Below, one piece after another: positions 18,595 to 43,359 of a stretch of 64,000 bases of DNA. A model generated the notes under the pieces. It saw only the letters and a list, made by a program, of their open reading frames with translations. It had not been told where the DNA came from and did not search any database. Made by a program: the position numbers and the translations under genes. Origin of the DNA: an uncultured Burkholderiales bacterium (GTDB lineage: Bacteria > Pseudomonadota > Gammaproteobacteria > Burkholderiales > Burkholderiaceae_C); contig CAMFGY010000006.1 in NCBI GenBank assembly GCA_945952065.1, forward strand, positions 62,001 through 126,000, given 5' to 3'. Within the stretch, counting starts at the first letter, position 1; each line of letters starts with the position of its first letter.

Positions 18595-19977
18595 ATGGTC
18601 CGAATTTTCAGTCACTATTTGCATAAGCAGACCTTGCTCCATGTCTTGTTTGACTTGGGCTTGATTCTGTTTGCGGTTGTCGCAGTGGTCCTGAGTCAGG
18701 GGGAGTCCGCTTCTTCGGTGATGCCTTTTGTGGCATCGCATGGGCTTTCGTTGGCAGGCTGTATGTTTGTGATCAACTCGGCCAGCGGCCTGTACCAGCA
18801 TGTCCACAACCGGTCCATCACTGAGTCTTGCGCGCGTGCGTTGCTGGGCTTGTTGTTTGGCCTGCCTTTGGCCTATGCGATTTTCAGTTTGATGCCTGTC
18901 AATGCCAATCATCGTGAGCTGATCACCATGGTGGCGATGGCTGCGGTGGCTGCTGTGATGGTTCACCGGGTTTATGCGGCCCATTCGGGCGCGCAGTCGC
19001 GCCTTCGGACCCGAATTTTGATTTTTGGTTCAGGCTCTGTGGCCAAGACGGTGGGTGAGACCCTGCGCGCGGCAGACCCCCATGCCTTGATCGTGGGTTA
19101 TTTGCCTGGTCCGAATGAAGAGCAGCAAGAAGTCCCTCAGGCAGAAATCATTGCCTCCCGCGGCACTTTGACTGAAACAGCGAAAAGCCTGGGTGTGGAT
19201 GAGATTGTGGTGGCCCTGTCGGAACGCCGTGGAGGGAGCATGCCCTTGCGTCAGTTGCTTGACTGCAAGTTGTATGGCATTCGCGTCGTTGATATCGCCA
19301 CGCATTTTGAAAAGACTCTGGCGCAGATCAAGATCAGCCATGTCAACGCAGGTTGGCTGGTGTTTGGCGATGGTTTCAACCAAGGTGTGGTGCGCACCGC
19401 ATTCAAGCGTCTGTTTGACATCGTGTTCTCCGCGGCGATTTTCATTGCGACTTTGCCGGTCATGCTCGTCACCGCAGTGATGATCAAGTTGGAATCTGCT
19501 GGCCCGGTCTTCTATCGCCAGGAGCGTGTCGGTTTGAATGGCGCGCCGTTCAAGGTGATCAAGTTCCGCAGTATGCGGACCGATGCAGAAAAGGACGGCA
19601 AGCCGCGCTGGGCCACAGTGAATGATGATCGCGTCACTCGCGTGGGGCGTTTCATTCGCAAGGTTCGGATCGATGAATTGCCGCAGTTGCTGAACGTGCT
19701 TCGCGGCGAAATGAGCTTGGTGGGCCCGCGTCCTGAGCGTCAGTTTTTTGTTGACGACTTGATTGGCAAGATTCCCTATTTCGCGGTTCGTCACAGCGTC
19801 AAGCCTGGTGTGACGGGTTGGGCGCAGGTGCGCTACGAGTACGGCTCAACGGTGGAGGACTCCATCGAAAAACTGCAGTACGACCTCTATTACGTGAAGA
19901 ACAACTCCCTGTTCCTTGACATGTTGATCATGTTGGAGACCGTGGCCGTGGTTTTGACCGGTAAGGGTGCTCGATAA
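18595..19977 (+). CDS. XrtA/PEP-CTERM system sugar transferase (TIGR03013/EpsB type, undecaprenyl-phosphate sugar phosphotransferase)
   Basis: Bacterial sugar transferase domain: KRLFDIVFSA, FRSMRTDAEKDGKPRWA, LPQLLNVLRGEMSLVGPRPERQFFV. Confidence 0.92.
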   Translation: MVRIFSHYLHKQTLLHVLFDLGLILFAVVAVVLSQGESASSVMPFVASHGLSLAGCMFVINSASGLYQHVHNRSITESCARALLGLLFGLPLAYAIFSLMPVNANHRELITMVAMAAVAAVMVHRVYAAHSGAQSRLRTRILIFGSGSVAKTVGETLRAADPHALIVGYLPGPNEEQQEVPQAEIIASRGTLTETAKSLGVDEIVVALSERRGGSMPLRQLLDCKLYGIRVVDIATHFEKTLAQIKISHVNAGWLVFGDGFNQGVVRTAFKRLFDIVFSAAIFIATLPVMLVTAVMIKLESAGPVFYRQERVGLNGAPFKVIKFRSMRTDAEKDGKPRWATVNDDRVTRVGRFIRKVRIDELPQLLNVLRGEMSLVGPRPERQFFVDDLIGKIPYFAVRHSVKPGVTGWAQVRYEYGSTVEDSIEKLQYDLYYVKNNSLFLDMLIMLETVAVVLTGKGAR

Positions 19978-20041
19978 AATCGGCAGTTGAATCGGCGCAA
20001 TTGCCGATTCTGTCGCCATGCATGGCATGGTTCAATACACC

Positions 20042-22138
20042 ATGGAATTTGGAGTTTTGAATCTTGCATGGTTGGGTGATTGCCTTGCGTTGGCGCTGTA
20101 TACGGCTTTCGCCCTGTATTTTGGTTACAGGGTTTGGTGGGTACGATCCTCGCCCGCCAATGGCTTGTCCTATGTTTTTGCCGCGGCGCTGATTGCCAGT
20201 GCCGCCTGGGCGGGTTTGGGCGTTGCTGCGGGCATGCGGTGGCTTGCCTCTGGCACTTTGGCCTGGATGATTCCGGCGGCAGATTTACTGCGCTACGCCT
20301 TGTGGTTCGGCTTCATATTGCTGCTGCTGCGTCCTGATCAGCAGCAGGTAAAAGCCCCGGTGGCTCCCCCCCGATTTGCGGATATGGCTTATGTGTCGCT
20401 GGGAAGCGCGCTGTTGATGCTTGTGCTTCGTGCCACCCAGTCGGAAATGGGGACCGACTTGCTCCGACCCTCGGCCTTCACGGCACTCGGACTGGCCATC
20501 GTGGGCTTGATCTTGGTCGAGCAGTTGCTCAGGAACTCAAGCTCGGACACACGTTGGAACGCCAAGCCCGTCTGCCTTGGTTTGGGCGCTTTGTTCGCCT
20601 TCGATCTGTTTGTTTTTTCGCAAGCCGCTTTGTTCCGCGAATTTGATGGCGATGCACTTAGCGTGCGTTCTCTGGCTCATTGTTCCGCGCTTCCTTTGTT
20701 GTTTTTGGCTTCCCGCCGCCGAGCCGACTGGCTTGAAAAACTCCACGTCTCGCGCGCAGCGGTGTTCCATTCGGCGACTTTGCTGCTGGTGGGTTTGTAT
20801 CTCCTCTTGGTTTCAGCCATTGGCTACTACGTTCGATACACGGGCGGGCAATGGGGCCGGGCATTGCAACTCGCCTTGGTGTTTGTTGCACTCCTTGGTT
20901 TAGCGATTCTGGTTTTGTCTGGCGCATTGCGCTCGCAACTGAAGGTCTATATCGGCAAGAATTTTTTCAGCTACCGCTACGATTACCGGGAGGAGTGGCT
21001 TCGATTCACGGCAACTCTGTCCTCGAGCGATTCGCCTCAACTGATGGGTGAAACGGTGATTCGCGCATTGGCCAATTTGGTTGAAAGCCCGTCAGGGGCT
21101 TTGTGGTTGCAGCAAGGCGAGGCAGAAGAGTTCAGTCAAACCGCACGTTGGAATTCCCCCTTCGTAGACGAGCGTGTTGCCACCGGCTCCGAGTTTTCTC
21201 AATTTCTGTTGACGCGAGCCTGGATTGTTGACGTGGACCGACTCCGCCATGGAGCCACCGAGTATGAAGGACTGCGTGCCCCGGAGTGGTTGTTGGCCGA
21301 TGCTCGCTACTGCTGGTTGGTGCCTTTGATGTTTGGGGAAAAGCTGCTCGGCTTTGTCCTCTTGGGGCAACCGAGGGCGACGCTTGAATTGGATTGGGAG
21401 GTGCGTGATTTGCTGAAGACGGCGAGTCGGCAGGCTTCCAGCTATCTGGCTCAAATGCAGGCGACAGAAGCCCTGCTGGAGTCGAAAAAATTCGACGCTT
21501 TCAATCGAATGTCGGCCTTTGTGGTCCACGATCTGAAAAACATCGTGACGCAGCTCTCATTGATGATGAAGAATGCCAAGCGTTTGAAAGATAACCCTGA
21601 ATTTCAGCAGGATATGCTCGATACTGTTGAGAATTCTCTGGAAAAGATGCGACAGCTCATGCTGCAACTGCGCGAGGGTGAAAAGCCTCATGGAGTCTCC
21701 AGCGGCGTTGACCTGGAGGCGATTGTCAAAAGGTTGGCGGCTGCTGCTTCAAGCAAGGGGCGGACACTGGCGCTGGAAATTGACTCCAAGGTCAGTACTC
21801 GCGGACATGAAGAGCGTGTGGAGCGAGTACTGGGTCATGTCGTGCAAAACGCTTTCGATGCTTCGAATCACGACGATGCTGTGGTGTTGAAGCTGGACCA
21901 ACTTGGCAGCTCGGCTCGGGTGGTGATAGCAGATCAGGGATGTGGCATGACGGATGAGTTCATTCGCCAGAAACTGTTCAGGCCCTTTCAAACAACAAAG
22001 CAGGCGGGAATGGGGATTGGTGCTTATGAAAGTTACCAGTACTTGAAAGAGCTTGGGGGAAATATCAAGGTTGAAAGCCAACCCAATATAGGTACCACCG
22101 TGACCATATTGTTGCCTCTTTTCCATGCGATGAACTGA
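20042..22138 (+). CDS. prsK: XrtA/PEP-CTERM system histidine kinase PrsK
   Basis: Multi-TM N-terminus, GAF-like region, HATPase (DQGCGMTDEFIRQKLFRPFQTTKQAGMGIGAYES); next to prsR; ORF can extend to 20018. Confidence 0.9.
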   Translation: MEFGVLNLAWLGDCLALALYTAFALYFGYRVWWVRSSPANGLSYVFAAALIASAAWAGLGVAAGMRWLASGTLAWMIPAADLLRYALWFGFILLLLRPDQQQVKAPVAPPRFADMAYVSLGSALLMLVLRATQSEMGTDLLRPSAFTALGLAIVGLILVEQLLRNSSSDTRWNAKPVCLGLGALFAFDLFVFSQAALFREFDGDALSVRSLAHCSALPLLFLASRRRADWLEKLHVSRAAVFHSATLLLVGLYLLLVSAIGYYVRYTGGQWGRALQLALVFVALLGLAILVLSGALRSQLKVYIGKNFFSYRYDYREEWLRFTATLSSSDSPQLMGETVIRALANLVESPSGALWLQQGEAEEFSQTARWNSPFVDERVATGSEFSQFLLTRAWIVDVDRLRHGATEYEGLRAPEWLLADARYCWLVPLMFGEKLLGFVLLGQPRATLELDWEVRDLLKTASRQASSYLAQMQATEALLESKKFDAFNRMSAFVVHDLKNIVTQLSLMMKNAKRLKDNPEFQQDMLDTVENSLEKMRQLMLQLREGEKPHGVSSGVDLEAIVKRLAAAASSKGRTLALEIDSKVSTRGHEERVERVLGHVVQNAFDASNHDDAVVLKLDQLGSSARVVIADQGCGMTDEFIRQKLFRPFQTTKQAGMGIGAYESYQYLKELGGNIKVESQPNIGTTVTILLPLFHAMN

Positions 22139-22147
22139 TAAATATAA

Positions 22148-23533
22148 ATGGCGATCTCAAACAATGAAAAGCCGCAGGATCAGCGGCAAATGATGCTGAT
22201 TGTTGAGGACGATCTGGCGCTTCAGAAGCAGTTGAAGTGGTCTTTGGATCGATTTGATTCCGTCCTTGCCGAAGATGTCAGCAGCGCCGTACAGCAGTTT
22301 CGCAAGCACAATCCGGTTGTGGTCACCATGGATTTAGGCCTTCCACCGGACCAAGATTCGGTCACGGAAGGTTTCAAGTGTTTGGAGAAATTGCTGGAGT
22401 TGAATCCGGCAGCAAAAGTCATTGTGCTGACCGGCCAAAATGACCATGAGAATGCCCTGCGTGCTATTCAAATGGGTGCGTATGATTTTCTGGCCAAGCC
22501 AGTGGATCCCGACTTACTCGCCTTGACGGTGGAACGGGCATTCCGTTTGTACGAGTTGCAGGAAGAGAATCAGCGCCTTTTGAACGCCAATCGTCAAGAT
22601 GCGCTGGGCGGTTTGATCACGCGAGACATGGGCATGCAAAAGATCTGCAGAACCATCGAGCGTGTTGCAAGCAGCGATTTGACGGTGTTGCTGCTGGGGG
22701 AGAGCGGCACCGGCAAAGAGGTTTTGGCGCAGGGCTTGCACACGGCCTCCAAGCGAAAGGGACGTTTTGTTGCGATCAACTGCGCGGCGATTCCGGAAAA
22801 CTTGCTCGAAAGCGAATTGTTCGGCTACGAAAAAGGGGCTTTTACAGGCGCCTCAAAGACGACTGTTGGTCGTCTGGAAGTGGCCGATGGCGGCACCTTG
22901 ATGCTCGATGAAATCGGTGATTTGCCCTTGCCATTGCAAGCAAAATTGCTTCGTTTTTTGCAGGAACGGGTGATTGAGAGAGTTGGTGGGCGGCAAGAGA
23001 TACCGGTCGACGTTCGCGTCGTTGGGGCAACGCACCGCGATCTGCAGGAGCAAATTGCTGCGGGGGGCTTCCGAGAGGATTTGTATTTCCGATTGGCTGA
23101 AATCGTGATCGATATCCCGCCATTGCGTGACCGTGTGGGTGATCCTGTGCTGCTTGCGAATGCGTTCGTCAAACAACTGGCCAGTGAGCAAAGGCGGCGT
23201 CCCCTGGGCTTCAGCCCAGACGCCTTGCGGGCGCTGGAAGCTTACAACTGGCCGGGCAATGTGCGAGAACTGCAAAATCGCATCAAGCGGGCCTTCATCA
23301 TGGCAGATGGCGAGCGATTGACCAGCAGCGATCTGGGTCTCGCTGATCCCAGCCGTGCGACTGAGGTTGACGAAGAAGTTTTGGACTTGCGTGTGGTTCG
23401 TGAACGTGCAGAGCGACAAGCCGTATTGACGGCCATGTCGCGTGCTGATGGCAATGTTGCCAAAGCGGCGGAATTGCTGGGTGTCAGTCGACCCACTTTG
23501 TATGATTTGATGAACAAATTGGAAATTAAATGA
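22148..23533 (+). CDS. prsR: PEP-CTERM-box response regulator transcription factor PrsR (NtrC-type sigma-54 activator)
   Basis: Receiver domain, Walker A GESGTGKE, sigma-54 contact motif GAFTGA, C-terminal Fis-type HTH. Confidence 0.94.
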   Translation: MAISNNEKPQDQRQMMLIVEDDLALQKQLKWSLDRFDSVLAEDVSSAVQQFRKHNPVVVTMDLGLPPDQDSVTEGFKCLEKLLELNPAAKVIVLTGQNDHENALRAIQMGAYDFLAKPVDPDLLALTVERAFRLYELQEENQRLLNANRQDALGGLITRDMGMQKICRTIERVASSDLTVLLLGESGTGKEVLAQGLHTASKRKGRFVAINCAAIPENLLESELFGYEKGAFTGASKTTVGRLEVADGGTLMLDEIGDLPLPLQAKLLRFLQERVIERVGGRQEIPVDVRVVGATHRDLQEQIAAGGFREDLYFRLAEIVIDIPPLRDRVGDPVLLANAFVKQLASEQRRRPLGFSPDALRALEAYNWPGNVRELQNRIKRAFIMADGERLTSSDLGLADPSRATEVDEEVLDLRVVRERAERQAVLTAMSRADGNVAKAAELLGVSRPTLYDLMNKLEIK

Positions 23534-26334
23534 CTCAAGGTGTATTGCGCTCCGCCAGCTCGCCATTTCCAGTGGCCAAGTTTTCGTCTCTTGTTTTGGC
23601 AATTGGCACAAGCGTGCTGCTGAGTGCTTGTTTTGGAGGGAGTGCCGGGGACCTGGTCGTTTCAGCACGCAAGCATGTGCAGGCGAACGATAAGAAAGCG
23701 GCGCTTATCGAATTGAAAAGCGCTTTGCAAAAAAGTCCGGGATTGGCTGAGGCCCGGTTTTTGTTGGGCGAGTTGCTGTTCGATAGCGGTGACTATGTGG
23801 GCGCAGTGGTCGAATTGCAAAAGGCCCAAGAACTTGGCTACGCGCCTGAGCAGGTTCTGCCACTGCTTGCAAAAGCGATGTATGCCAAAGGCCCTCCAGA
23901 AAAGGTGATTGAGCAGTTTTCCTCAGTCAAATTGAGTGAAGCTGCCGCGCAAGCTGAAATCCTGTCGATTGTGGCCGCCGCTCAATTGTCGGCTGGGCAC
24001 ACAGCTGATGCGAAGAAAAACGTGGAGGCGGCGTTGAGCGCTGACGCCAAGTCGTCAGCAGCCCAACTGGCGCAAGTCAGATTGCTGGCCAGCTCAAAAG
24101 ACTTTGAAGGCGCCTCGAAATTGCTGACGGAAGTGCTGAAGAGCCAACCCAATGACAGCGAGGCCCATCGCCTCAGAGGTGATTTGTTCTTGCTTGCGGG
24201 CCAGCGTCAGGAGGCCGCAGAAGCCTATAAGGCGGCCATCAAGTTCAATCGGCGGAATTATGGCGCTCACACCGCAATTTTGAATCTCTATTTGCAAGAA
24301 AAAGACCTGAAGGCGGCGGATAAGCAATTGGCGGAATTCAAAGCCGCGGAACCCTCGAGGCCTGATGTCAAATGGTTTGGTGCCTTGCTGGCCGTGGAAC
24401 GAGAGGATTTCAAGTCGGCTGGAGAATTGTCTCAGCAATTGTTGAAAATTGCGCCAGATAATCCTCAGGTCCTGCATCTAGGTGGCATCATTGATTTAAA
24501 GGCTGGCGCTTTTGTCCGTGCCGAAGCTAAATTGGGTCGCGCTGTACAAATGATGCCTGAGAACGTTCAGGTACGTTTGGCTTTGGCCCAAACTTACCTG
24601 AATATGGGAGATCCCGCCAAGGCTTTGAAGGCGCTTTCGCCATTATCGAATAATGGCAAGCCCAATTGGGAGGCGGCCGTGCTGATCGCCCAGGCTCATA
24701 TGATGCAAGGGGATTTGGCAAAGGCTGAAGCTTTTTATGAGATTGCTGCGAATCTCAACTCCACCGATTTCAATAGCCGAACTGCTTTGGCCTTGGCCCA
24801 ATTTGATAAAGGGCGTGCAGAGCAAGGTCTGAGTAAACTCAGTGCTTTGACATTGAGTGAATCAGGCGTAACCAGTGATCTCGCATTGATCGGCGTTTAT
24901 CTGCGCAAGAAAGATTACGATGCCGCGCTGCTTGCCGTTGAGCAAATGAAAAAAAAGCAGCCCAATTCGCCGATTGTGAGCAATTTGCGCGGGCAGATTG
25001 AGTTGCAACGGGGGCAAAACGATGCCGCAAGACAGGCTTTTGAAGCGACGCTGAAGATTGACCCGGGTTTTGTGCCCTCGGTGTTGGCTTTGGCAAGCCT
25101 GGACGAACAAAGTGGTAAAGCTGCTTTGGCGCAAACGCGGCTCGAAAAGTTTGTTGAAGCAAACCCTCAAAATGTGCGCGTCGCCATGGCCTTGAGTGTA
25201 CTGCGGGCCAAATTGGGGGCGGGCAAGGATGAACTGGTCGCTTTGCTGCAGAAAACGATCAAGAATAACGCCGCTTCGGTGGCGCCGCGCCTCGCTTTGG
25301 TTGACTTGTACTTGCAGGCCGACGAGCCTAAGCAGGCTTTGGCCAGTGCGCAGCAAGGTTTGGCTCAGATTCCTGACAATGCAGAGTTGTTGGATGCACT
25401 TGGCAAATCGCAATTCAAACTCGGCGAGTTGAATCAAGCCATATCCACCTACAACAAAATGGCGGTGCTTCAACCAGGCCAGCCAGAGCCGCATTTCCGT
25501 CTGGCGCAGATTCATTTAGAGCGGAAAGACCAAGCAGCAGCAGCCCAGAGCTTGAGAAAAGCGCTGTCCGTCAAAGGGGACTACCTGCCGGCTTTGCGGG
25601 GTTTGATTGGGCTGGAACTGGCGATGGGCAAGAAGTCAGAGGCCTTGGCGCTTGCGAAGTCGGTACAGAAGAGCCGCCCTGCCGAGTCGTTGGGTTATGC
25701 ATTTGAAGGTGATATCGCTGCAACGCAAAAAGACTGGCCCGGCGCAGCAAGGGCTTATCGCTCGGGTCTCGATCGGCAAAATTCCACCGAGCTGGCAATC
25801 AAGCTTCATAAAGCTTTGCAAGCCAGTGGTGGTGTCACCGATGCGGATAAATTTAGCCAACAGTGGATCGGCAAGTATCCAAAAGATGGTGTGTTTAGAA
25901 CCTATTTGGGTGACAGGGCCGTTCTCAAGGAAGATTGGGACTCTGCATTGCTGCACTATCAAAGCCTGTTGGCCATGAGTCCGGAAAGTCCTTCGATTCT
26001 CAACAATCTTGCCTTGATTCAAAATCGTAAGAAGAAGGGCTCGGGCTTGGATTTGGCTTTGAAAGCGACCCAGCTGGATCCGGGTAATGCATCCTACAAG
26101 GATTCATTGGCCGAGATTTACTTTGACAATGGCAATGTGGCGAAGGCAATTGAGACCCAAAGTGCGGCCTTGGCTGCGGCGCCAGATCGCCCCTGGTATC
26201 GCTTGCATTTAGCCAAGTACTATCTTGCGGCGGGGGATCGTGCGAAAGCCTCACAAGAATTGGCAAGCTTGGCGGCTTTGGGGGATAAATTCTCTGGCCA
26301 AGCAGAAGTAAAGGCGTTGCAAGCTAAATTGTAA
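23530..26334 (+). CDS. prsT: XrtA/PEP-CTERM system TPR-repeat lipoprotein PrsT
   Basis: Lipobox LLSAC, about 900 aa of TPR repeats, start overlaps prsR stop. Confidence 0.92.
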   Translation: MTQGVLRSASSPFPVAKFSSLVLAIGTSVLLSACFGGSAGDLVVSARKHVQANDKKAALIELKSALQKSPGLAEARFLLGELLFDSGDYVGAVVELQKAQELGYAPEQVLPLLAKAMYAKGPPEKVIEQFSSVKLSEAAAQAEILSIVAAAQLSAGHTADAKKNVEAALSADAKSSAAQLAQVRLLASSKDFEGASKLLTEVLKSQPNDSEAHRLRGDLFLLAGQRQEAAEAYKAAIKFNRRNYGAHTAILNLYLQEKDLKAADKQLAEFKAAEPSRPDVKWFGALLAVEREDFKSAGELSQQLLKIAPDNPQVLHLGGIIDLKAGAFVRAEAKLGRAVQMMPENVQVRLALAQTYLNMGDPAKALKALSPLSNNGKPNWEAAVLIAQAHMMQGDLAKAEAFYEIAANLNSTDFNSRTALALAQFDKGRAEQGLSKLSALTLSESGVTSDLALIGVYLRKKDYDAALLAVEQMKKKQPNSPIVSNLRGQIELQRGQNDAARQAFEATLKIDPGFVPSVLALASLDEQSGKAALAQTRLEKFVEANPQNVRVAMALSVLRAKLGAGKDELVALLQKTIKNNAASVAPRLALVDLYLQADEPKQALASAQQGLAQIPDNAELLDALGKSQFKLGELNQAISTYNKMAVLQPGQPEPHFRLAQIHLERKDQAAAAQSLRKALSVKGDYLPALRGLIGLELAMGKKSEALALAKSVQKSRPAESLGYAFEGDIAATQKDWPGAARAYRSGLDRQNSTELAIKLHKALQASGGVTDADKFSQQWIGKYPKDGVFRTYLGDRAVLKEDWDSALLHYQSLLAMSPESPSILNNLALIQNRKKKGSGLDLALKATQLDPGNASYKDSLAEIYFDNGNVAKAIETQSAALAAAPDRPWYRLHLAKYYLAAGDRAKASQELASLAALGDKFSGQAEVKALQAKL

Positions 26335-29759: not shown

Positions 29760-29859
29760 GCTTGAGTCGTGTCGGTTTTCTTTACAGTTGCACGCGCTGC
29801 CCTCGATGATTTTGCGTTGATGATTGCTAAGTTGTTGATTCGTAATGAAATAAAAAACT

Positions 29860-29876
29860 TGGCACGGCAACTGCTT
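29860..29876 (+). promoter_or_regulatory. sigma-54 (-24/-12) promoter
   Basis: TGGCACG-GCAA-CTGCT: GG and GC dinucleotides separated by exactly 10 nt; about 73 nt upstream of the PEP-CTERM gene ATG. Confidence 0.82.
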
Positions 29877-29948
29877 ATAGTTCACCGCAAGTGTGGTGGG
29901 CTGGGATTTCAAAGCAGCCTTTTTTGAATCTTGTTTAGAGGAACGAAC

Positions 29949-30767
29949 ATGAGTAAATTCAACAAGCTCGCAGTGGTTCTGGCAGCGGCTGTGGCCAGCT
30001 TTGCCGCTCACGCGGAATTCACGATCGACGATTTCAGCGTCAATCAAACCGAAATCTCCGACCAAAACAAGTCCGACGGTTTGGGCGTGTACAGCACCGT
30101 GACAGGCGCTGGCATCCTGGGCGGTTCGCGTTCTTTGTACGTCGAGCGCACTGGTGGTATCGGTGGTGACAATGCTGGCGTGAACTCGGCTATCTCTGCC
30201 GGTGTTGACGGTGGTACTTACGGCTACAGCACTGGCTCGAAGGCTGTCGGTCTGAGCTATATCCGCTGGGACGGCAGCGCCGCTGCAGGTGCTACCGCGA
30301 TCTCTGAAGCCAATTACAAGAGCCAGTTGCAAGTGAATGGCCTGGGCGGCTTCAACTTGGCTGCTCAAGGCGTTCAGTTCAAGATCAGCGTGATCGACTC
30401 GGACCTGGGCTTCCCCTTCACCATCCAGGCCTTCACCAGCGCGACTCAGTGGTCTAGCCTGACCCTGTTCGCTTCGATGGGCACTGGCACCTACACCATC
30501 ACCTTTGCTGACTTCATTGGCGCCGCTGGCCTGACCAATCAAGTTCTGCCGACCGGCGCTCTGCTGTCGACCGGTACTGGTGGTTCTGTGGACTTCTCCA
30601 GCCTGGGTGCTTTGCAGGCCATCGTGAACCCGACTTCGGCTTTCAAGGGTCAGATCGACCTGCAGATCGACGCTGCCGGTACCGTGCCTGAGCCAGCTTC
30701 CCTGGCCCTGGTTGGCCTGGCCCTGGTGGGTCTGGGTGTGGCCCGCCGCCAAAAGGCTGCCAAGTAA
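29949..30767 (+). CDS. PEP-CTERM sorting domain-containing protein (putative XrtA substrate)
   Basis: Signal peptide and C-terminus VPEPASLALVGLALVGLGVARRQKAAK (PEP motif, TM helix, basic tail). Confidence 0.96.
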   Translation: MSKFNKLAVVLAAAVASFAAHAEFTIDDFSVNQTEISDQNKSDGLGVYSTVTGAGILGGSRSLYVERTGGIGGDNAGVNSAISAGVDGGTYGYSTGSKAVGLSYIRWDGSAAAGATAISEANYKSQLQVNGLGGFNLAAQGVQFKISVIDSDLGFPFTIQAFTSATQWSSLTLFASMGTGTYTITFADFIGAAGLTNQVLPTGALLSTGTGGSVDFSSLGALQAIVNPTSAFKGQIDLQIDAAGTVPEPASLALVGLALVGLGVARRQKAAK

Positions 30768-34049: not shown

Positions 34050-34685
34050 ATGATCCAGAGCATTCAATTCACCTCGCGCAGGCTCGGCCTTGCTCTTTGT
34101 GCGGCGGCTTTGGCCTTGTTGCAGGCTTGCGCCAGTTCATCGGGCGCCCATCCACCTGCGCCTGTTTCTGCTGCAGTATCTGATTACAGCTACATCGTTG
34201 GCGCAGGCGACAACATCAACATCATTGTCTGGCGCAATCCAGAGCTCTCAATGGCTGTGCCCGTCCGGCCGGACGGCAAGATCGCAACGCCGCTGATCGA
34301 CGAATTGGTGGCTCAGGGCAAAAACCCGATCGAGTTGGCCCGAGAGATTGAAAAGCAACTCAGCAAGTACGTTCGCGACCCTGTGGTGACGGTGATCGTG
34401 ACGGGCTTTGTTGGCCCCTACAGTGAGCAAATTCGCGTGATTGGCGAAGCGGCCAGACCGCAAGCCTTGCCCTACAAGCAAAAAATGACCGTACTGGACG
34501 TCATGATTGCGGTTGGCGGCTTGACTGATTTTGCTGCCGGCAATGAAGCCACGATTCTGCGCTCGTCCGACGGTGGCAAGCAGTACTCGGTGCGTTTGAA
34601 GGATTTGATCAAGCGAGGCGATGTCTCTGCCAACGTTGAAATGCGTCCTGGCGACGTGCTGATCATTCCTCAGAGCTTCTTCTAA
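34050..34685 (+). CDS. XrtA-associated polysaccharide export lipoprotein (Wza/EpsE-like)
   Basis: Lipobox LLQAC, Poly_export (DYSYIVGAGDNINIIVWRNPELS) and SLBB domains. Confidence 0.92.
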   Translation: MIQSIQFTSRRLGLALCAAALALLQACASSSGAHPPAPVSAAVSDYSYIVGAGDNINIIVWRNPELSMAVPVRPDGKIATPLIDELVAQGKNPIELAREIEKQLSKYVRDPVVTVIVTGFVGPYSEQIRVIGEAARPQALPYKQKMTVLDVMIAVGGLTDFAAGNEATILRSSDGGKQYSVRLKDLIKRGDVSANVEMRPGDVLIIPQSFF

Positions 34686-34782
34686 TTTTTTAGGGGCTGT
34701 CGCTCCGAATCGCAGCTTGTGCGGTTCAAGTCCCGATCCATGAGCCATGCATGTGGCTCTTCCTTCTAGAGATCATCCGCCG

Positions 34783-36366
34783 ATGGATTTATTGATTGCC
34801 CAGGTTATTGCTATCGTCAAGCGAAGCTGGAAGTACCGCTGGCCGGGTTTGGTTGTGGCTTGGCTGGTGGGGATTGCTGGCTCTGTGTTCGTCATGATGA
34901 TGCCTGACCGCTATGAGGCGAGCGCGCGCATTTATGTGGACACGGAGTCCATCCTGAAGCCATTGATGTCAGGCTTGGCGATTCAGCCCAATATCGAGCA
35001 GCAAGTGGTGATGTTGAGCCGCACGCTGATCAGCCGTCCCAATGTGGAGAAGCTGATTCGCATGGCCGATTTGGACCTGAAAAACCAGTCCAAAGCGCAG
35101 CAAGAAGCCTTGATTGAAAGCGTGATGAAGAACTTGTCGATCCAGAGCACGGCTCGCGACAATCTTTACACGCTGGCCTATCGGGACTCCGACAAAGAAA
35201 GCGCCAAGCGGGTGGTTCAGTCGTTCGTGTCGATCTTCGTCGAGTCGAGTTTGGGTTCCAACCGCAAAGACTCGGCCACCGCTGCGACCTTCATCAATGA
35301 GCAAATCAAGAATTACGAAGCGAAGCTCGAGGAAGCGGAAAGCCGACTGAAAGAGTTCAGACTGCGCAATTTGCAGAATATGGATGCGGATGGCAAGGAC
35401 TCGGCCTCCCGTTTGCGTGAAATGAGTGCTGAACTGGAGCGCGCGCGCTTGGAGTACCGCGAGGCCGTCAATGGCCGTGATGCTGCCAGACAGCAATTGG
35501 AAGCCGAGCGTAAAGGGGCGATCAGCACCACCCAAAGCCTGTTGCAAGAGTCCAACCTGAATATTTCAACGCCTGAGTTGGATGCCCGGCTGGACGCGCA
35601 AAAGCGCAATTTGGATTCGCTTTTGCAGCGCTATACAGAACAGCACCCGGATGTGATCAGTGCTCGCAAATCGATCGCCGACATCGAGGAAGAAAAGCGT
35701 GCCAAGATGAAAGAACTGCGCAAGGCCGCCCTGGCGTCGCCTTCAGCGACCGGAGCCAATGGCGGCGGTAGTGCGACTGCACAAGAAATGAGCCGCTTGC
35801 TTGCTTCTGCTGAGGTGCAAGTGGCGACCTTGAGGGCGCGGGTGGATGAGTACTCCGCTCGCTATGCCAAGGCTCTGGCGGGGGTACGAACTGCGCCTCA
35901 ATTGGAGGCGGAGGCGGCTCAATTGAATCGCGATTATGCGATTCACAAGAAGAACTACGAAGAGTTGGTTTCACGGCGCGAATCGGCTTCGATGTCGGGT
36001 GAATTGGATCTGGCGGCAGGCGTTGTTGATTTCAGATTGATTGATCCGCCGCGGGTTTCGCCCAAACCCGTAGCGCCCAACCGCTTGCTGTTGTTGGCTG
36101 GGGTGATGGGGGCCGCATTTGCTGCGGGCTTGGTCACGGCATTTTTGGTGAGCCAGCTTCGCCCGGTCTTTCACGATGAGCTTGAACTGCGGTCCCGCAT
36201 CGATCTGCCCATTTTGGGAGTGGTGACTCGCCTCACTTCGGCAGCTGATATCAAGCGCAAGCGCCAGGATTTGATGCGTTTCGGCGCAGCGGCCGGGAGC
36301 TTGTTGGCCTTGTTTGTGTTTGGACTTTCGACGATGGCGTTTTTGATGACAAGGGCGGTGGCCTGA
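34783..36366 (+). CDS. XrtA system polysaccharide chain length determinant protein (Wzz/Wzc N-terminal type)
   Basis: N- and C-terminal TM segments flanking coiled coil; RYEASARIYVDTESILKPL. Confidence 0.92.
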   Translation: MDLLIAQVIAIVKRSWKYRWPGLVVAWLVGIAGSVFVMMMPDRYEASARIYVDTESILKPLMSGLAIQPNIEQQVVMLSRTLISRPNVEKLIRMADLDLKNQSKAQQEALIESVMKNLSIQSTARDNLYTLAYRDSDKESAKRVVQSFVSIFVESSLGSNRKDSATAATFINEQIKNYEAKLEEAESRLKEFRLRNLQNMDADGKDSASRLREMSAELERARLEYREAVNGRDAARQQLEAERKGAISTTQSLLQESNLNISTPELDARLDAQKRNLDSLLQRYTEQHPDVISARKSIADIEEEKRAKMKELRKAALASPSATGANGGGSATAQEMSRLLASAEVQVATLRARVDEYSARYAKALAGVRTAPQLEAEAAQLNRDYAIHKKNYEELVSRRESASMSGELDLAAGVVDFRLIDPPRVSPKPVAPNRLLLLAGVMGAAFAAGLVTAFLVSQLRPVFHDELELRSRIDLPILGVVTRLTSAADIKRKRQDLMRFGAAAGSLLALFVFGLSTMAFLMTRAVA

Positions 36367-36367
36367 T

Positions 36368-37348
36368 ATGACGAGCCTGATCGAACAAGCTGCACGTCGG
36401 CTGGAACAACTGCGTCAAGCAGGTGTGGTGCTTCCTGAAGAGTCCGCGACTGCCGCTCCAGCGGTGACGACTCCACTGGAGAAATCTGTTGCCTCAGTAG
36501 AGGCGGCCTTGGCCGCGCAAGAACAGAGCGACGCCGCGGAGGCCTCCAATGCGTCGACGAATGCTGCGCAGGCTAACGCGATTTCTAGACGGGTTGAGTT
36601 GGACCTGGATGCGTTGGCTGCGCAAGGTTTTGTGACGCCCAACGCCGGGCGCACCCAGTTGGCGGACCAGTACCGTGTGATCAAGCGGCCATTGATCAAG
36701 AACGCCATGGGCAAAGGCGCGGCAACGCTGAACCATGCCAATCTGATCATGGTCACCAGTGCATTGGCGGGGGAAGGGAAGAGCTTCACTTCCTTGAATC
36801 TGGCGCTGAGTATTGCGGCCGAACTGGACAACACGGTGATGTTGGTGGATGCGGATGTGGCCCGCCCTTCGATGTTGCGCATGCTGGGGCTGCCTCAGGG
36901 GCCAGGCTTGTTGGACGTGTTGGAACAGCGTTACGACATGGCTGAAGTCATGATGCGTACCAATGTGGACAAGCTCACCTTGCTGCCCAGCGGCACCCCA
37001 CATCAGCGCGCGACGGAAATTCTGGCCAGCGATGCCATGAGCAATCTGCTGGACGATATGGCCAAACGCTATCCCGACCGGATCATTATTTTTGATTCGC
37101 CGCCGCTTTTGCTGACCACGGAGTCGCGCGTGCTCGCCTCGCATATGGGGCAGATCGTGGTGGTGGTTCGGGCGGAAAGCACCGCGCAAAGTGCGGTTAT
37201 GCAAGCGCTGGCCACGATTGAGACTTGCCCTTTGAAAATGATGTTGTTGAACCAGGCTTCGAACGATGCCAGCGGCAGCTACGGTACCGGCTATGGTTAC
37301 GGCTACGGCTATGGATATGGTGACAGCGGTGACGCAGCCAAAAGCTGA
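36368..37348 (+). CDS. XrtA-associated tyrosine autokinase (BY-kinase)
   Basis: Walker motifs (SALAGEGKSFTSLNLALS, VMLVDADVARPSM) and a Tyr-rich C-terminal tail GYGYGYGYGYGD. Confidence 0.92.
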   Translation: MTSLIEQAARRLEQLRQAGVVLPEESATAAPAVTTPLEKSVASVEAALAAQEQSDAAEASNASTNAAQANAISRRVELDLDALAAQGFVTPNAGRTQLADQYRVIKRPLIKNAMGKGAATLNHANLIMVTSALAGEGKSFTSLNLALSIAAELDNTVMLVDADVARPSMLRMLGLPQGPGLLDVLEQRYDMAEVMMRTNVDKLTLLPSGTPHQRATEILASDAMSNLLDDMAKRYPDRIIIFDSPPLLLTTESRVLASHMGQIVVVVRAESTAQSAVMQALATIETCPLKMMLLNQASNDASGSYGTGYGYGYGYGYGDSGDAAKS

Positions 37349-38996
37349 GCGTGGTTTGCGTGGCGCCGGTTTGCCTGGGGCCGGTGCGGGTCGTGCTTTC
37401 GCTTTGAGGAAGTCTTCAACAGCGGGGTCAGGTCGGGTGCTCACCGTGCTGGCCTTTGCGATGGCGGCACCACAGCTGAGCATGGCTCAGATGAGCAACT
37501 CGAGCACGTCCTTGGTTTCTGAGCAAGGCAATGGCGCGACCTCCGGCGCGGGTGTTCGGATTGGCAGTCTGGGATTTCGCGCTCAGTCGCGCATCAGTGT
37601 GACCCAAACCTGGACCGACAATCTGAATTTGCAAGAGCGAGCACCAGACAAGGCCTTGATCACCATCGTGGCTCCCGGTATCTCGATCAGCAGCACAAGT
37701 GGACGATTGCGCGGCACTTTGGACTACGCTTTGAACGGCTTGGTCTACACCAAGTCGGAGCGAGAAAACACCGTTCAGCATGCCTTGACGGCGAATGCGA
37801 ACTTGGAGGTGTTGGACCGGGTGATGTTTGTCGATATGCGGGCCAGTTACGGCCAGCAACAGAGTTCTGCCTTCGGCCAACAAACATCGCCCGAGAACGC
37901 AAGCCGCAATCCGAACAGCACCGATGTGGCCAGCTTGATGCTTGCACCGGTGTTGCGGGGGCGATTGGGAAACTATGCCCGCGTCGAAGCCAAGGTGAGC
38001 GCAACGGAGACCAATGCCAAGGGCTCTGAGCTGGGGGACTCCAGCATCCATGAGCTGAGTTTGCGCGCCGACGGCATTGCCACAGGTCCTCTGTCTTGGT
38101 GGAGCATGGGGAACACGCAGCGCTCGCACTTCAAGGTTGGCAATAGCGCCTCGAAGTCTTCGTTGACCGCGGGCGCCAATTACCGCGTTGATGTCGATTT
38201 TTCTATGGGTGCTAGTGCCGGCCTGGAACGCAGCAATCTTCAAACAGGCAGTAACAATCAAGCGGGTCCCACAGCAGGCTTCAATGCGCAGTGGACGCCA
38301 ACGCCTCGGACATCGCTGCAAGGCGACTATCAGCATCATGACTATGGCGACAGCCATTCCCTGAGTCTGAATCACCGATTCCAACGCTCGTCAATTCGGT
38401 ATTCGGACAACCGTTCGGTGGCCCAGGGCTTGGACAGCAAGGCGGGGGGGCAGCAAAGCAATTACGAGCTGTACTTCTTCCAGTTCCAAAGCCTGTATCC
38501 CGACCCCGCGGTTCGTGATGCCAAGGTTCGGCAATTCCTTCAAGAGAGTGGCCTCAACGCGAACGCCCCCGCCAACTCGGGCTTTTTGTCTTCGGGGCCG
38601 TCTTTGCAGCGTCGACAAGAGTTGTCGTTCTCTTGGAACGGTCTTCGCGCCTCGGCAACAGCCATGTTGAATCAGAGCAAGAACAGCCGGATCGGGACGC
38701 AATTGCCAGACCAAGGAGATTTGGCCAAGTCCTCGATGGTTTTGCAGCGCGGCGCCAGCGCGAGTTTTTCCTATCGTTTGACGCCTGAGAGTTCCCTCAG
38801 TGTGGCATTGTCTGAGCAGCAAACGCGGGGGGATCAAGCAAATCTATCCAGCACGCTGCGCACTGCCAATGTGAACTGGACCGGCCGTTTGGGCGCCAAA
38901 GGCTCTGTGAATCTGGGCGCTCGGCATTCGAAGTTTGATGGCAGTCTTCCCTATCGGGAGAATGCCGTGTTTGCAACCTTGGTTCACCAGTTCTAA
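37317..38996 (+). CDS. TIGR03016-like PEP-CTERM system-associated outer-membrane beta-barrel protein
   Basis: Beta-barrel-like repeats with terminal VFATLVHQF; overlaps the kinase 3' end; alternative ATG 37311. Confidence 0.85.
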   Translation: MVTAVTQPKAERGLRGAGLPGAGAGRAFALRKSSTAGSGRVLTVLAFAMAAPQLSMAQMSNSSTSLVSEQGNGATSGAGVRIGSLGFRAQSRISVTQTWTDNLNLQERAPDKALITIVAPGISISSTSGRLRGTLDYALNGLVYTKSERENTVQHALTANANLEVLDRVMFVDMRASYGQQQSSAFGQQTSPENASRNPNSTDVASLMLAPVLRGRLGNYARVEAKVSATETNAKGSELGDSSIHELSLRADGIATGPLSWWSMGNTQRSHFKVGNSASKSSLTAGANYRVDVDFSMGASAGLERSNLQTGSNNQAGPTAGFNAQWTPTPRTSLQGDYQHHDYGDSHSLSLNHRFQRSSIRYSDNRSVAQGLDSKAGGQQSNYELYFFQFQSLYPDPAVRDAKVRQFLQESGLNANAPANSGFLSSGPSLQRRQELSFSWNGLRASATAMLNQSKNSRIGTQLPDQGDLAKSSMVLQRGASASFSYRLTPESSLSVALSEQQTRGDQANLSSTLRTANVNWTGRLGAKGSVNLGARHSKFDGSLPYRENAVFATLVHQF

Positions 38997-38999
38997 TCA

Positions 39000-40067
39000 A
39001 TGTACGAAGCGTTCTACGGCTTGAGCAGCAAGCCATTCCAGCTCAGCCCGGACCCGAACTTCTACTTCGGGAGCAAGCAGCATCGGCGTGCCAAGGCCTA
39101 TCTTGATTACGGCGTGCTCCGCAATGATGGCTTTATCGTCATCACGGGCGAAATCGGCGCGGGCAAAACCACCTTGCTGCGCGGCCTGCTCGACAGCCTG
39201 AATCGCAGCAATGTGGTGATCGGCAATTTGGTGACCACCCAGCTCGACGCGGAAGACACCTTGCGCATGGTCGGCTCTGCGTTTGGCGTGCGCGTCAAGG
39301 ATCTGCCCAAGTCCGAGGTCTTGATGACTTTGGAAGCCTTTTTCGTCAGCCAGACCAGCCAAGGCAAACGCTGCCTGCTGATCGTGGATGAGGCGCAGAA
39401 TCTCAGTGCCCGTGCAGTTGAAGAGTTACGCATGTTGTCGAACTTCCAGTTCAGCAACCAATCCTTGCTGCAGACTTTTTTGGTCGGGCAACCCGAGTTC
39501 CGCGGCATTTTGCAGCGGCCCGAGATGGAGCAATTCCGGCAGCGTGTGGCCGCTACCTGCCACATCGGCCCCTTGGACGAAGACGAGACGCAGCGCTACA
39601 TCGAACACCGTTTGAAGTGCGCCGGCAGCACCGGCAAACCGACCTTTGCGTCCGACGCCTTCCCGGCCATTTTCAAAGCCAGCCAGGGCATCCCGCGGCG
39701 CATCAATTCTTTGTGTGATCGTCTGCTTTTGCTCGGCTTTATGGGCAGCAAAACCCATCTGGCATTGGCCGATGTGGAAGAGGCTTTGCGCGATATCGCC
39801 CAAGAAATCGAAGTGCCGAAGTCTGTGGCGGGCGAGGGCGTCGATGCCTTGGCGGCATTGCCTGAGAGTGGCCGCTTGGATCTGTCTCGCGTGAATCTTG
39901 GCGCTGATGAACTCGCCGCCATGTCGACGGAACTTGCAAAGCTGGGTGAGGGGCAGCAGTCCGATCGTCTGCAACGCTTAGAGGCCAGTTTGCTGAGATT
40001 GGAACGCATCAATTTGCAAACGCTGCAGTTGATGCAGCGCTTGGTGGCCTCTATCAAGCAAGACTGA
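39000..40067 (+). CDS. XrtA/PEP-CTERM system-associated ATPase (ExeA-like AAA)
   Basis: MYEAFYGLSSKPFQLSPDPNFYF, Walker A GEIGAGKTT, Walker B LLIVDEAQ. Confidence 0.94.
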   Translation: MYEAFYGLSSKPFQLSPDPNFYFGSKQHRRAKAYLDYGVLRNDGFIVITGEIGAGKTTLLRGLLDSLNRSNVVIGNLVTTQLDAEDTLRMVGSAFGVRVKDLPKSEVLMTLEAFFVSQTSQGKRCLLIVDEAQNLSARAVEELRMLSNFQFSNQSLLQTFLVGQPEFRGILQRPEMEQFRQRVAATCHIGPLDEDETQRYIEHRLKCAGSTGKPTFASDAFPAIFKASQGIPRRINSLCDRLLLLGFMGSKTHLALADVEEALRDIAQEIEVPKSVAGEGVDALAALPESGRLDLSRVNLGADELAAMSTELAKLGEGQQSDRLQRLEASLLRLERINLQTLQLMQRLVASIKQD

Positions 40068-40177
40068 GCAAGCGCCGAAGAGCGCGTGCGGGTGTTGCAG
40101 GAGGCTTCGCTCTTGAGCTTGCCCAGCGATCACTTGGCCGTGCTTCTTCGCTTCAAACTGTTGTTGTACCCAAAGCT

Positions 40178-41083
40178 ATGTTGATGCCTACTTCGCCAGC
40201 TCCTGTGCGCAATGCCATGACCATTGATGTGGAAGACTACTTCCAGGTCTCGGCCTTCGCACCCTATATTGATCGGGCTGATTGGGACCGTCGGGAATGC
40301 CGCGTTGAGCGCAATGTAGATCGCATTCTGGCTTTGTTGGCCGAGCATCAAACGAAAGCAACCTTCTTCACTCTGGGCTGGATTGCCGAGCGCTACCCTC
40401 ATTTGGTGAAGCGCATCGTGGCCCAAGGCCATGAGTTGGCCAGCCATGGGTTCGGACATGAGCGGGTCAGCGATCTGACGCCCGCCAGCTTCGCCGACGA
40501 CATCGTGCGAACCAAGGCCCTGCTGGAGGATTTGGGCGGGCATGAAGTGTTGGGTTATCGGGCGCCCAGCTTTTCAATAGGGCATGCCAATCTGTGGGCT
40601 TTCGACACCCTGCTTGAGGCTGGCTATCGCTACAGCTCCAGTGTCTACCCCATTCAACATGACCACTACGGCATGCCAGACTCCCCGCGCTTCGCCTATC
40701 CCGTGCGTGAAGGTTTGCTCGAAGTGCCCGTCACTACCTTGCGCATGTTCAACAAGAACTTCCCCTCCAGTGGCGGCGGCTATTTCCGTTTGCTGCCCTA
40801 CGCTTTGTCGCGCTGGATGATTCGCAAGGTCAATACGAAGGACCAAGAGTCAGCCGTCTTCTATTTCCATCCTTGGGAGATCGATGCCGAGCAACCCCGT
40901 GTACCGGGCATCGACGGTAAAACGCGCTTCAGGCATTACGTCAATATCGAGCGCACCCATGCGCGCATTGCTCACTTGCTGAAAGACTTTTCCTGGGGCC
41001 GCATGGACGAGATCTTTCTGGGTCGAAAGGCGGGGCCAAACTCGGCGCTGTCCGAGCATGCTGCAGCAACAATTTCTGCCTGA
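40178..41083 (+). CDS. XrtA system polysaccharide deacetylase (TIGR03006-like)
   Basis: MTIDVEDYFQVSAFAP and NodB-like motifs; C-terminal YFHPWEID. Confidence 0.93.
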   Translation: MLMPTSPAPVRNAMTIDVEDYFQVSAFAPYIDRADWDRRECRVERNVDRILALLAEHQTKATFFTLGWIAERYPHLVKRIVAQGHELASHGFGHERVSDLTPASFADDIVRTKALLEDLGGHEVLGYRAPSFSIGHANLWAFDTLLEAGYRYSSSVYPIQHDHYGMPDSPRFAYPVREGLLEVPVTTLRMFNKNFPSSGGGYFRLLPYALSRWMIRKVNTKDQESAVFYFHPWEIDAEQPRVPGIDGKTRFRHYVNIERTHARIAHLLKDFSWGRMDEIFLGRKAGPNSALSEHAAATISA

Positions 41084-41089
41084 ACCCGC

Positions 41090-42136
41090 ATGACAACTGC
41101 TTTTCAGATCACGCGCCTGAGGGCGCAAGACGTCGCTTTGGCTCAACGTTGGGATGCCTTTGTCTTGGCCTGCCCGCAAGCGACCTTTTTTCATCGTGCG
41201 GGTTGGCTGCGCATGGTCGAGCAGGTGTTTGGCCATCAAGGCTTTTTCCTTTGTGCGCAGCGCCAGGGGCAGATCGAGGGCGTGCTGCCTTTGGCTCAGG
41301 TGAAGAGCCTTTTGTTCGGCCACTCCTTGGTGGCCTTGCCTTTTGCTGTGTATGGGGGCGTGGCTGCCGTCAATGAAGAAGCGGCGCATGCGCTGGAACA
41401 AGAGGCCGAGCGTATCGCGAAAGAGCTCGGAGTCGAGCATCTGGAATACCGCAATGTGCAGCCACGCCATGCCGATTGGCCGCGTCAAGATCTTTATGTG
41501 ACCTTTCGCAAAGAGATCCTGCCCGAGGAAGAAGCCAATATGTTGGCCATTCCTCGCAAGGCGCGAGCCAGTGTGCGCAAAGGCATCAAAAACCAGTTGG
41601 TCGGACATCTTGATGCGAATGTCGATCGCTTTTTTCAGCTGTATGCAGATAACACGCATCGCCATGGCACGCCCGCCATGCCCAAGCGCTACTTTGCCGC
41701 CCTGTTGGATGAGTTTGGGCCGGACGCCGAAGTGCTGACCGTGACCGATACCGCCGGCAGGCCCTTGAGTTCGGTGTTGAGTTTTTACTTTCGCGACGAG
41801 GTGCTGCCTTATTACGCTGGCGACGATGAGGACGCGCGTGATCTGGCCGCCAATGACTTCAAGTACTGGGACTTGATGCGGCGAGCCTGCGCCCGGGGCT
41901 GCAAGGTGTTTGACTACGGTCGCAGCAAGCAGGGCACAGGCTCCTATGCATTCAAGAAGAACTGGGGCTTTGAGCCGACCCCCTTGCATTACGAGTACCG
42001 CCTGTACAAGCGTGACGCCGTGCCCCAGAACAATCCGTCTAACGCCAAATATCAGCTGATGATCAAAACTTGGCGGCGCTTGCCGCGTGGCTTTGTCAAT
42101 TGGCTGGGGCCCTTCATCGTGCGTAACCTGGGCTGA
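41090..42136 (+). CDS. FemAB family XrtA/PEP-CTERM system-associated protein
   Basis: FemAB-like GNAT fold; KVFDYGRSKQGTGSYAFKKNWGFEPTPLHYEY. Confidence 0.92.
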   Translation: MTTAFQITRLRAQDVALAQRWDAFVLACPQATFFHRAGWLRMVEQVFGHQGFFLCAQRQGQIEGVLPLAQVKSLLFGHSLVALPFAVYGGVAAVNEEAAHALEQEAERIAKELGVEHLEYRNVQPRHADWPRQDLYVTFRKEILPEEEANMLAIPRKARASVRKGIKNQLVGHLDANVDRFFQLYADNTHRHGTPAMPKRYFAALLDEFGPDAEVLTVTDTAGRPLSSVLSFYFRDEVLPYYAGDDEDARDLAANDFKYWDLMRRACARGCKVFDYGRSKQGTGSYAFKKNWGFEPTPLHYEYRLYKRDAVPQNNPSNAKYQLMIKTWRRLPRGFVNWLGPFIVRNLG

Positions 42137-42141
42137 ACGGC

Positions 42142-43359
42142 GTGGCCAATATTCTCTATTTGGTACATCGTCTGCCTTACCCGCCCAACAAAGGCGACAA
42201 GGTCAGGTCGTTCCATTTGCTCAAGCATCTTGCGGCCCGGCATCGGGTCTTCTTGGGGACGTTTGTCGATGACCCTGAAGACCTTCAATACCTGGATACC
42301 GTTCGCCGCTACTGCGCCGATATGCATGTGGTGAAAATCGACCCACGACGGTCCAAGTTGGCGTCGCTGCGGGGCTTGCTCTCAGGTGAAGCACTGAGTT
42401 TGCCGTTTTATCGCGATGCAAGCATGCAGGCTTGGGTGAACAAGCTGGTGCAGACTGAAAATTTGTCTGCCTCGGTGGTGTTTTCTTCGCCCGTGGCTCA
42501 GTACGCGATGCAATGTCCCCAAGTGCCCATGTTGGTGGACTTTGTCGATCTGGATTCGGCCAAATGGACGGACTATGCGCCCAACCATGTCTGGCCGCTG
42601 TCTTGGCTTTACCGCCGCGAAGGCCGCACCCTGCTGGCCTTTGAGCAAGAGGTGGCGGCGAAGGCGCGTGCATCTTTTTTTGTGACCGACAAAGAAGTGG
42701 CTTTGTTTCACGCGCGCTCACCAGGTCTTCAGGCCAAGGTGCATGCCTTGTGCAATGGCGTGGACGCCGAGTTCTTCTCGCCAGAGGCGGGTCGCACTTC
42801 GCCATTCCCAGCGCAGCAAATGCCGCTTGTTTTCACTGGCGCCATGGACTATTGGCCCAATATCGATGCCGTGACCTGGTTCGTCCAAGACATCTTGCCT
42901 GAGTTGCGTAAGCAATGGCCAAGCCTTCATTTCTATATCGTCGGTCGCAGCCCAACAGCGGCTGTACAGGCGTTGGCCGGCGAGGGCGTGACGGTCACCG
43001 GCACGGTGCCCGATGTTCGGCCCTATCTCCAACATGCCGCGGTGGTGGTGGCGCCCTTGCGCTTGGCGCGTGGTATTCAAAACAAGATTCTTGAAGCGAT
43101 GGCCATGGGCCGGCCGGTCGTTGCAGCGAGCAGTTGCGTGCAAGCCATTGACGCCAAAGTCGGGCAGGACTTGCTGCAAGCCCAGGCGAGCGAAGACTAT
43201 GTGCGTGAAGTGAGTGCCTTGTTGGCCTCGGTTGAGCGGGCAGAGCAAATCGGGGCGGCGGGTCGCGCCTGCGTTTTGGCCAATTACAGCTGGGATGCCC
43301 ACTTGGCGGGGATCGATCAGTACTTGGCCGAAATCCCGGCGAGCGAGGTATCGCCATGA
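42142..43359 (+). CDS. TIGR03087-like XrtA/PEP-CTERM system glycosyltransferase
   Basis: HRLPYPPNKGDKVRSFHLLKHL and GT-B C-terminal domain; GTG start. Confidence 0.92.
   Translation: MANILYLVHRLPYPPNKGDKVRSFHLLKHLAARHRVFLGTFVDDPEDLQYLDTVRRYCADMHVVKIDPRRSKLASLRGLLSGEALSLPFYRDASMQAWVNKLVQTENLSASVVFSSPVAQYAMQCPQVPMLVDFVDLDSAKWTDYAPNHVWPLSWLYRREGRTLLAFEQEVAAKARASFFVTDKEVALFHARSPGLQAKVHALCNGVDAEFFSPEAGRTSPFPAQQMPLVFTGAMDYWPNIDAVTWFVQDILPELRKQWPSLHFYIVGRSPTAAVQALAGEGVTVTGTVPDVRPYLQHAAVVVAPLRLARGIQNKILEAMAMGRPVVAASSCVQAIDAKVGQDLLQAQASEDYVREVSALLASVERAEQIGAAGRACVLANYSWDAHLAGIDQYLAEIPASEVSP

Follow-up and report, generated by a model that had tools for sequence, protein, structure and literature searches.

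What controls the PEP-CTERM protein gene in this stretch of an uncultured Burkholderiales genome (the window, 64,000 nucleotides in all), and does the same control extend to other PEP-CTERM genes of the genome? The original prediction had proposed a circuit running from PrsK through PrsR and RpoN to an exosortase substrate, a proposal that fits all of the sequence evidence and published work considered here. The textbook sigma-54 switch is real, and its most likely target is a single gene for a surface-matrix protein. Two DNA elements that the prediction had not mentioned, a PrsR box and a probable IHF site, are found upstream of the promoter. The features concerned are:

18595..19977 (+): XrtA/PEP-CTERM system sugar transferase, EpsB2-like (TIGR03013, 507 bits)
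20018..22138 (+): prsK, sensor histidine kinase (TIGR02916, 777 bits)
22148..23533 (+): prsR, NtrC-type sigma-54 activator (TIGR02915, 717 bits; cut-off 503)
23530..26334 (+): prsT, TPR protein (TIGR02917, 680 bits)
29770-29786 (+): PrsR box (Haft 2006 motif 1), TGTCGGTTTTCTTTACA, 11/11 match to TGTCG-N6-TTTACA
29828-29840 (+): probable IHF site, TAAGTTGTTGATT, 9/9 match to YAANNNNTTGATW, 18 bp upstream of the promoter box
29859-29875 (+): near-consensus sigma-54 -24/-12 promoter, TTGGCACGGCAACTGCT, by direct reading
29886..29948 (+): predicted 5' leader with GGCTG...CAGCC-TTTTTT and Shine-Dalgarno AGAGGA, almost identical in a genome of the same genus (G009)
29949..30767 (+): cargo gene, encoding a 272-aa, distantly PepA-like PEP-CTERM protein with a signal peptide (scores for PF07589, TIGR02595 and NF033554 below)
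34050..42136 (+): XrtA-associated exopolysaccharide genes (export, chain length, tyrosine kinase, outer-membrane protein, ATPase, deacetylase, FemAB), all listed models above cut-off
43356..44954 (+): exosortase A, xrtA (TIGR03109, 343 bits; cut-off 208)

The cargo gene thus sits within a standard XrtA exopolysaccharide cluster, with PrsK, PrsR and PrsT encoded 3.6–10 kb upstream and exosortase A 13 kb downstream. PrsR combines Response_reg, Sigma54_activat and Fis-type HTH domains (Pfam), and GESGTGKE and GAFTGA can be read directly in its sequence; with its receiver, GAFTGA-bearing AAA+ and Fis-type HTH regions it is the NtrC-type enhancer-binding protein that had been proposed from those two motifs. 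The genome, a 5.27 Mb draft in 74 contigs, encodes all three proteins of the system of Haft 2006 (PrsR, PrsK and PrsT) above curated cut-offs, together with a single copy of rpoN. Its closest named relatives, judged by PrsR, are Paucibacter and Roseateles (90% identity with Paucibacter sp. Y2R2-4). Many of 80 prsR loci surveyed in named genomes likewise have, within 10 kb, a PEP-CTERM gene with a box and a sigma-54 promoter, which makes the cis-encoded layout a common one as well.

The cargo C-terminus, VPEPASLALVGLALVGLGVARRQKAAK, has the PEP, hydrophobic segment and basic tail of an exosortase substrate, and the protein scores above cut-off with both PF07589 (28.1 bits) and TIGR02595 (22.3 bits); the signal peptide was judged by eye. 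Against NF033554 (floc_PepA) it scores 35.9 bits over almost the full length, below the cut-off of 80, and we regard it as a probable distant relative of PepA rather than filing it as PepA. The G009 orthologue is 63% identical. An antisense open frame of 459 codons (29373-30752, -) spans both promoter and cargo, and is probably a by-product of codon bias.

Two dinucleotides define the promoter: GG at 29861-29862 and GC at 29873-29874, 10 nt apart, the invariant spacing within TTGGCACG-N4-TTGCW; the one departure from that pattern is a C in place of the first T of TTGC. Its box ends 73 nt before the cargo ATG (29949), and the original prediction of a canonical sigma-54 promoter at about that distance is confirmed. 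By the -12 rule, transcription is predicted to start near 29886, which would leave a 63-nt leader. This predicted leader is more conserved with G009 than the coding region is, it has a GGCTG/CAGCC-TTTTTT hairpin, its Shine-Dalgarno can pair with the U-tract, and it was found in only two of 60 genomes. We considered and rejected an RNA switch or attenuator in the leader, as folding was no better than in shuffles (z = 0.40), a terminator scan gave none and Rfam returned nothing relevant.

Upstream of the promoter box, at a distance of 72 bp, is the PrsR box. In the available part of Haft 2006 (PMC1569441), motif 1 is a 17-nt element with the 3' end TTTACA that occurs upstream of PEP-CTERM genes and is assigned to PrsR, whose binding to it is there a prediction; the TGTCG half of the consensus used here comes from our own promoter compilation. 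According to the same text, motifs 1 and 2 precede 99 of 167 proteobacterial PEP-CTERM genes with a spacer of 32-92 nt (mean 62.8, s.d. 10.6) and a mean of 71 nt from promoter to start codon, and the phylogenetic profile of the PrsR-associated motif exactly matches those of PrsR, PrsK and PrsT. The window, where a 17-nt element ending in TTTACA falls within that range, has 72 nt against the mean of 62.8 and 73 nt against the mean of 71. PrsR is predicted, on the strength of motif and homology, to act through 29770-29786. Because this box and the probable IHF site are both present, the assignment of the promoter to PrsR is convincing. In G009, where the intervening spacer has diverged, the box and the promoter (there TTGGCATGCCAACTGCT) are both kept.

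Bending at sigma-54 promoters is usually the work of IHF. Its consensus is WATCAANNNNTTR, to which TAAGTTGTTGATT, read in reverse, is a perfect match, giving a predicted site between enhancer and promoter. Comparison was made with a reference set of 51 PrsR-type promoters from related genomes (the window's own included), each with a PEP-CTERM gene downstream. After removal of near-duplicates, 39 of the remaining 48 contain an IHF-like site of at least 8/9 in either orientation; over 200 rounds of dinucleotide-preserving shuffling the count averaged 3.5 and never exceeded 8. Such sites lie most often, like the one in the window, 18 bp upstream of the promoter box, with others near 7 and 30 bp. 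Both IHF subunits, alpha and beta, are encoded in the genome. Our literature search found no publication naming PEP-CTERM together with IHF, and the available part of Haft 2006 (PMC1569441) contains no mention that we could find of an IHF site or of helical phasing.

The identity of the protein bound at this central element is the point at which a different reading fares best. It is conceivable, if doubtful, that the element (YAAG-N3-TTGATW) is a site for a second activator or co-regulator specific to PrsR promoters. At the four 'free' positions of the IHF consensus the bases are non-random here, with G often following YAA, and the element is weaker in a wider sample of the class (14 of 30 promoters at 8/9 or better, a count made without a shuffle control). 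On the other hand, it occurs in both orientations, A/T tracts often lie on the side expected for IHF, and the general role of IHF at such promoters and the presence of both its subunits argue for the IHF reading. Since the G009 site is degenerate (7/9), IHF may assist without being required, or 29828-29840 may bind another protein.

The spacing between box and promoter provides a further regularity. Among the 51 reference promoters the distance is 40, 60-63, 72-74, 83-87 or 96 bp, with none between these groups. In a second, largely independent test, a strict combined pattern that allowed 55-85 bp was run over 369 genomes of the class; it gave 83 sites including the window's (control, 0), the other 82 falling at 60-64, 72-76, 80 and 82-85 bp and none at 65-71. 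The two sets overlap slightly, G131 being in both. The best-fitting period is 11.15 bp (R = 0.79), compared with a maximum R of 0.42 in 20,000 uniform simulations, which treat promoters as independent although those of related genomes are not. Single genomes contain differing spacings, which argues against simple common descent as the explanation. Overall, the distances of some 130 PrsR-type promoters cluster around 40, 62, 73, 84 and 96 bp, with almost nothing between. Steps of about 11 bp would be the expected signature of an activator, here PrsR, that has to face the polymerase across a loop of DNA, and they are consistent with the 10.6-bp standard deviation given in Haft 2006 (PMC1569441).

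Whether PrsR serves one gene or many could be addressed across the genome, which has about 67 PEP-CTERM genes (69 matches, two discarded after translation). Scoring box plus promoter at the allowed spacings upstream of all 67 gave 17.9 for the window gene and 11.9 for the next; the 51 reference promoters all reach at least 15.1, and 1340 shuffles reach 12.5 at the 99th percentile and 14.1 at most. One PEP-CTERM gene of the 67, that of the window, is thus above the null, although start codons assigned by a simple rule and a draft assembly leave room for a weak or missed target. The genome-wide scan that the original prediction had called for therefore speaks against the PEP-CTERM regulon that it had envisaged: PrsR's PEP-CTERM target here seems, from promoter scoring, to be one dedicated gene. 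This argues that most PEP-CTERM proteins in this bacterium are controlled in some other way, 66 of the roughly 67 genes being without any PrsR-type promoter. Other genomes have several such promoters (six in G558, five in G649), so the narrow use is a property of the lineage and not of PrsR in general.

Targets of other kinds are seen elsewhere in the class. At two loci, in two genomes (L265 and L267), a PrsR box and sigma-54 promoter precede homologous genes, the L265 product being a GGDEF diguanylate cyclase, which suggests that PrsR may also feed c-di-GMP signalling in some bacteria. At two more, again in two genomes (L259 and L260), the same arrangement precedes a gene for a DUF5658 protein.

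A relaxed genome-wide search and those sigma-54 matches that were examined yielded only one other in-phase site with much of the box (9/11). This candidate second target (L285, 72-bp spacing) was rejected, since the promoter there belongs to a pilin gene and has a PilR-type site. At this locus (contig C5, ~180.4 kb) two near-identical pilin genes stand in tandem, and each is preceded by a sigma-54-like promoter and an upstream site of the TGACAAA/TTTGTCA type.

Could the cargo promoter, then, be sigma-54-dependent yet driven mainly by some other NtrC-type activator, such as PilR or NtrC? The genome encodes many sigma-54 activators (a PrsR-family search gave 54 matches, only one above cut-off), and the next-best site in the genome is the one before the pilin gene, where the TGTCGGGCGATCTGACAAAAATTGTCA region resembles a PilR-type promoter. 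The window box, however, matches exactly the motif associated with PrsR, a motif that follows the prsR locus through other species and whose profile, as noted above, is that of the Prs proteins. We consider another main activator improbable.

Least credible of all is a chance match, with transcription of the cargo starting at a sigma-70 promoter or running in from the glycosyltransferase gene upstream: GG/GC-type matches do occur by chance inside genes and there is a weak 9/12 sigma-70-like site at 29781-29810, but the combined score lies far above its null and box and promoter are both kept in G009. The core motif TGGCAC-N5-YTGCW has one exact match in the window, the promoter itself, with about 0.15 expected by chance (from the genome control count), and 34 in the genome, many of them intragenic, versus 12 for the reversed pattern. 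The pattern joining box and promoter (TTTACA-N52-82-TTGGCAC-N6-TGC) has one match in the 5.27 Mb and none when reversed. We take the promoter as certain because of the accompanying PrsR box, the combined pattern being far beyond chance.

With high confidence, then, we read this as an enhancer-dependent sigma-54 promoter serving the adjacent PEP-CTERM gene, with a proposed PrsK/PrsR/IHF mechanism. Box, IHF consensus and promoter stand in the right order and at the right spacing, box and IHF site are perfect matches, these DNA elements are conserved to the extent described above, and all of the protein components are present. From homology and the cited work we infer the remainder: binding, bending, dependence on PrsR, RpoN and IHF, and function in the matrix. 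On some signal, PrsK would phosphorylate PrsR, which would bind the 17-bp box at 29770-29786, while IHF would bend the DNA at 29828-29840. With the DNA so bent, PrsR would lie on the correct face of the helix, and its AAA+ domain would reach the RNA polymerase-sigma-54 waiting at 29859-29875. There the GAFTGA loop would contact the sigma-54 polymerase, and ATP hydrolysis would open the promoter for a start near 29886. The PEP-CTERM product would then be exported, presumably processed by the exosortase A of the same cluster, and built into a polysaccharide matrix (floc or biofilm).

We also think it rather probable, with somewhat less assurance, that PrsR promoters across the class share a phased box/IHF/-24/-12 architecture with steps of ~11.15 bp, and that in this lineage PrsR has been narrowed to one matrix protein encoded beside its regulators, despite the presence of dozens of PEP-CTERM proteins. 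The motif of 2006 is sharpened here to a three-part, helically phased model, which makes PrsR targets much easier to find in genomes, and a Paucibacter/Roseateles-type bacterium gains a concrete, testable switch for one of its floc or biofilm matrix proteins.

The circuit is of a kind already described. The novelty claimed for it by the original prediction, as a specific circuit with its regulon, is small, PrsK/PrsR/RpoN control being known elsewhere (PMC1569441, PMC9850573, PMC9012009) and the PEP-CTERM regulon seemingly coming down to one gene. What we add is modest but testable: a PrsR box, a probable IHF site, a rule of phasing and the finding of a single target; of these, the probable IHF site and the helix-turn spacing are two regularities that we did not find in the literature consulted on such switches. 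Haft 2006 (PMC1569441) predicts the circuit from motif and protein profiles, and the window agrees with the promoters described there in its 17-nt box ending in TTTACA, sigma-54 box, spacing and ATG distance, as well as in its single-gene PEP-CTERM target and prsK-prsR-prsT locus; it differs in that one of 67 PEP-CTERM genes appears to be a target here, versus 99 of 167 overall there. In Zoogloea resiniphila, as summarised in PMC9012009, a two-component system and RpoN likewise control a PEP-CTERM gene (PrsK-PrsR-RpoN-PepA) in a genome with many of them; that circuit was tested genetically, whereas the present one is known from sequence, and Zoogloea prsK or prsR mutants lose their flocs, a requirement that PepA overexpression bypasses. 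A further relative is pepA of Aquincola tertiaricarbonis RN12, whose start was mapped to a TGGCAC/CTGCTT promoter like the one seen here before a PEP-CTERM gene, and whose floc-related transcription depends on rpoN1 (Xia 2023, PMC9850573), a dependence on rpoN that we infer for the cargo gene. Aquincola pepA lies directly upstream of prsT and is served by one of four rpoN paralogues, whereas in the genome studied here, with its one rpoN, prsT lies three genes upstream of the cargo gene, whose product falls short of the cut-off for the PepA model.
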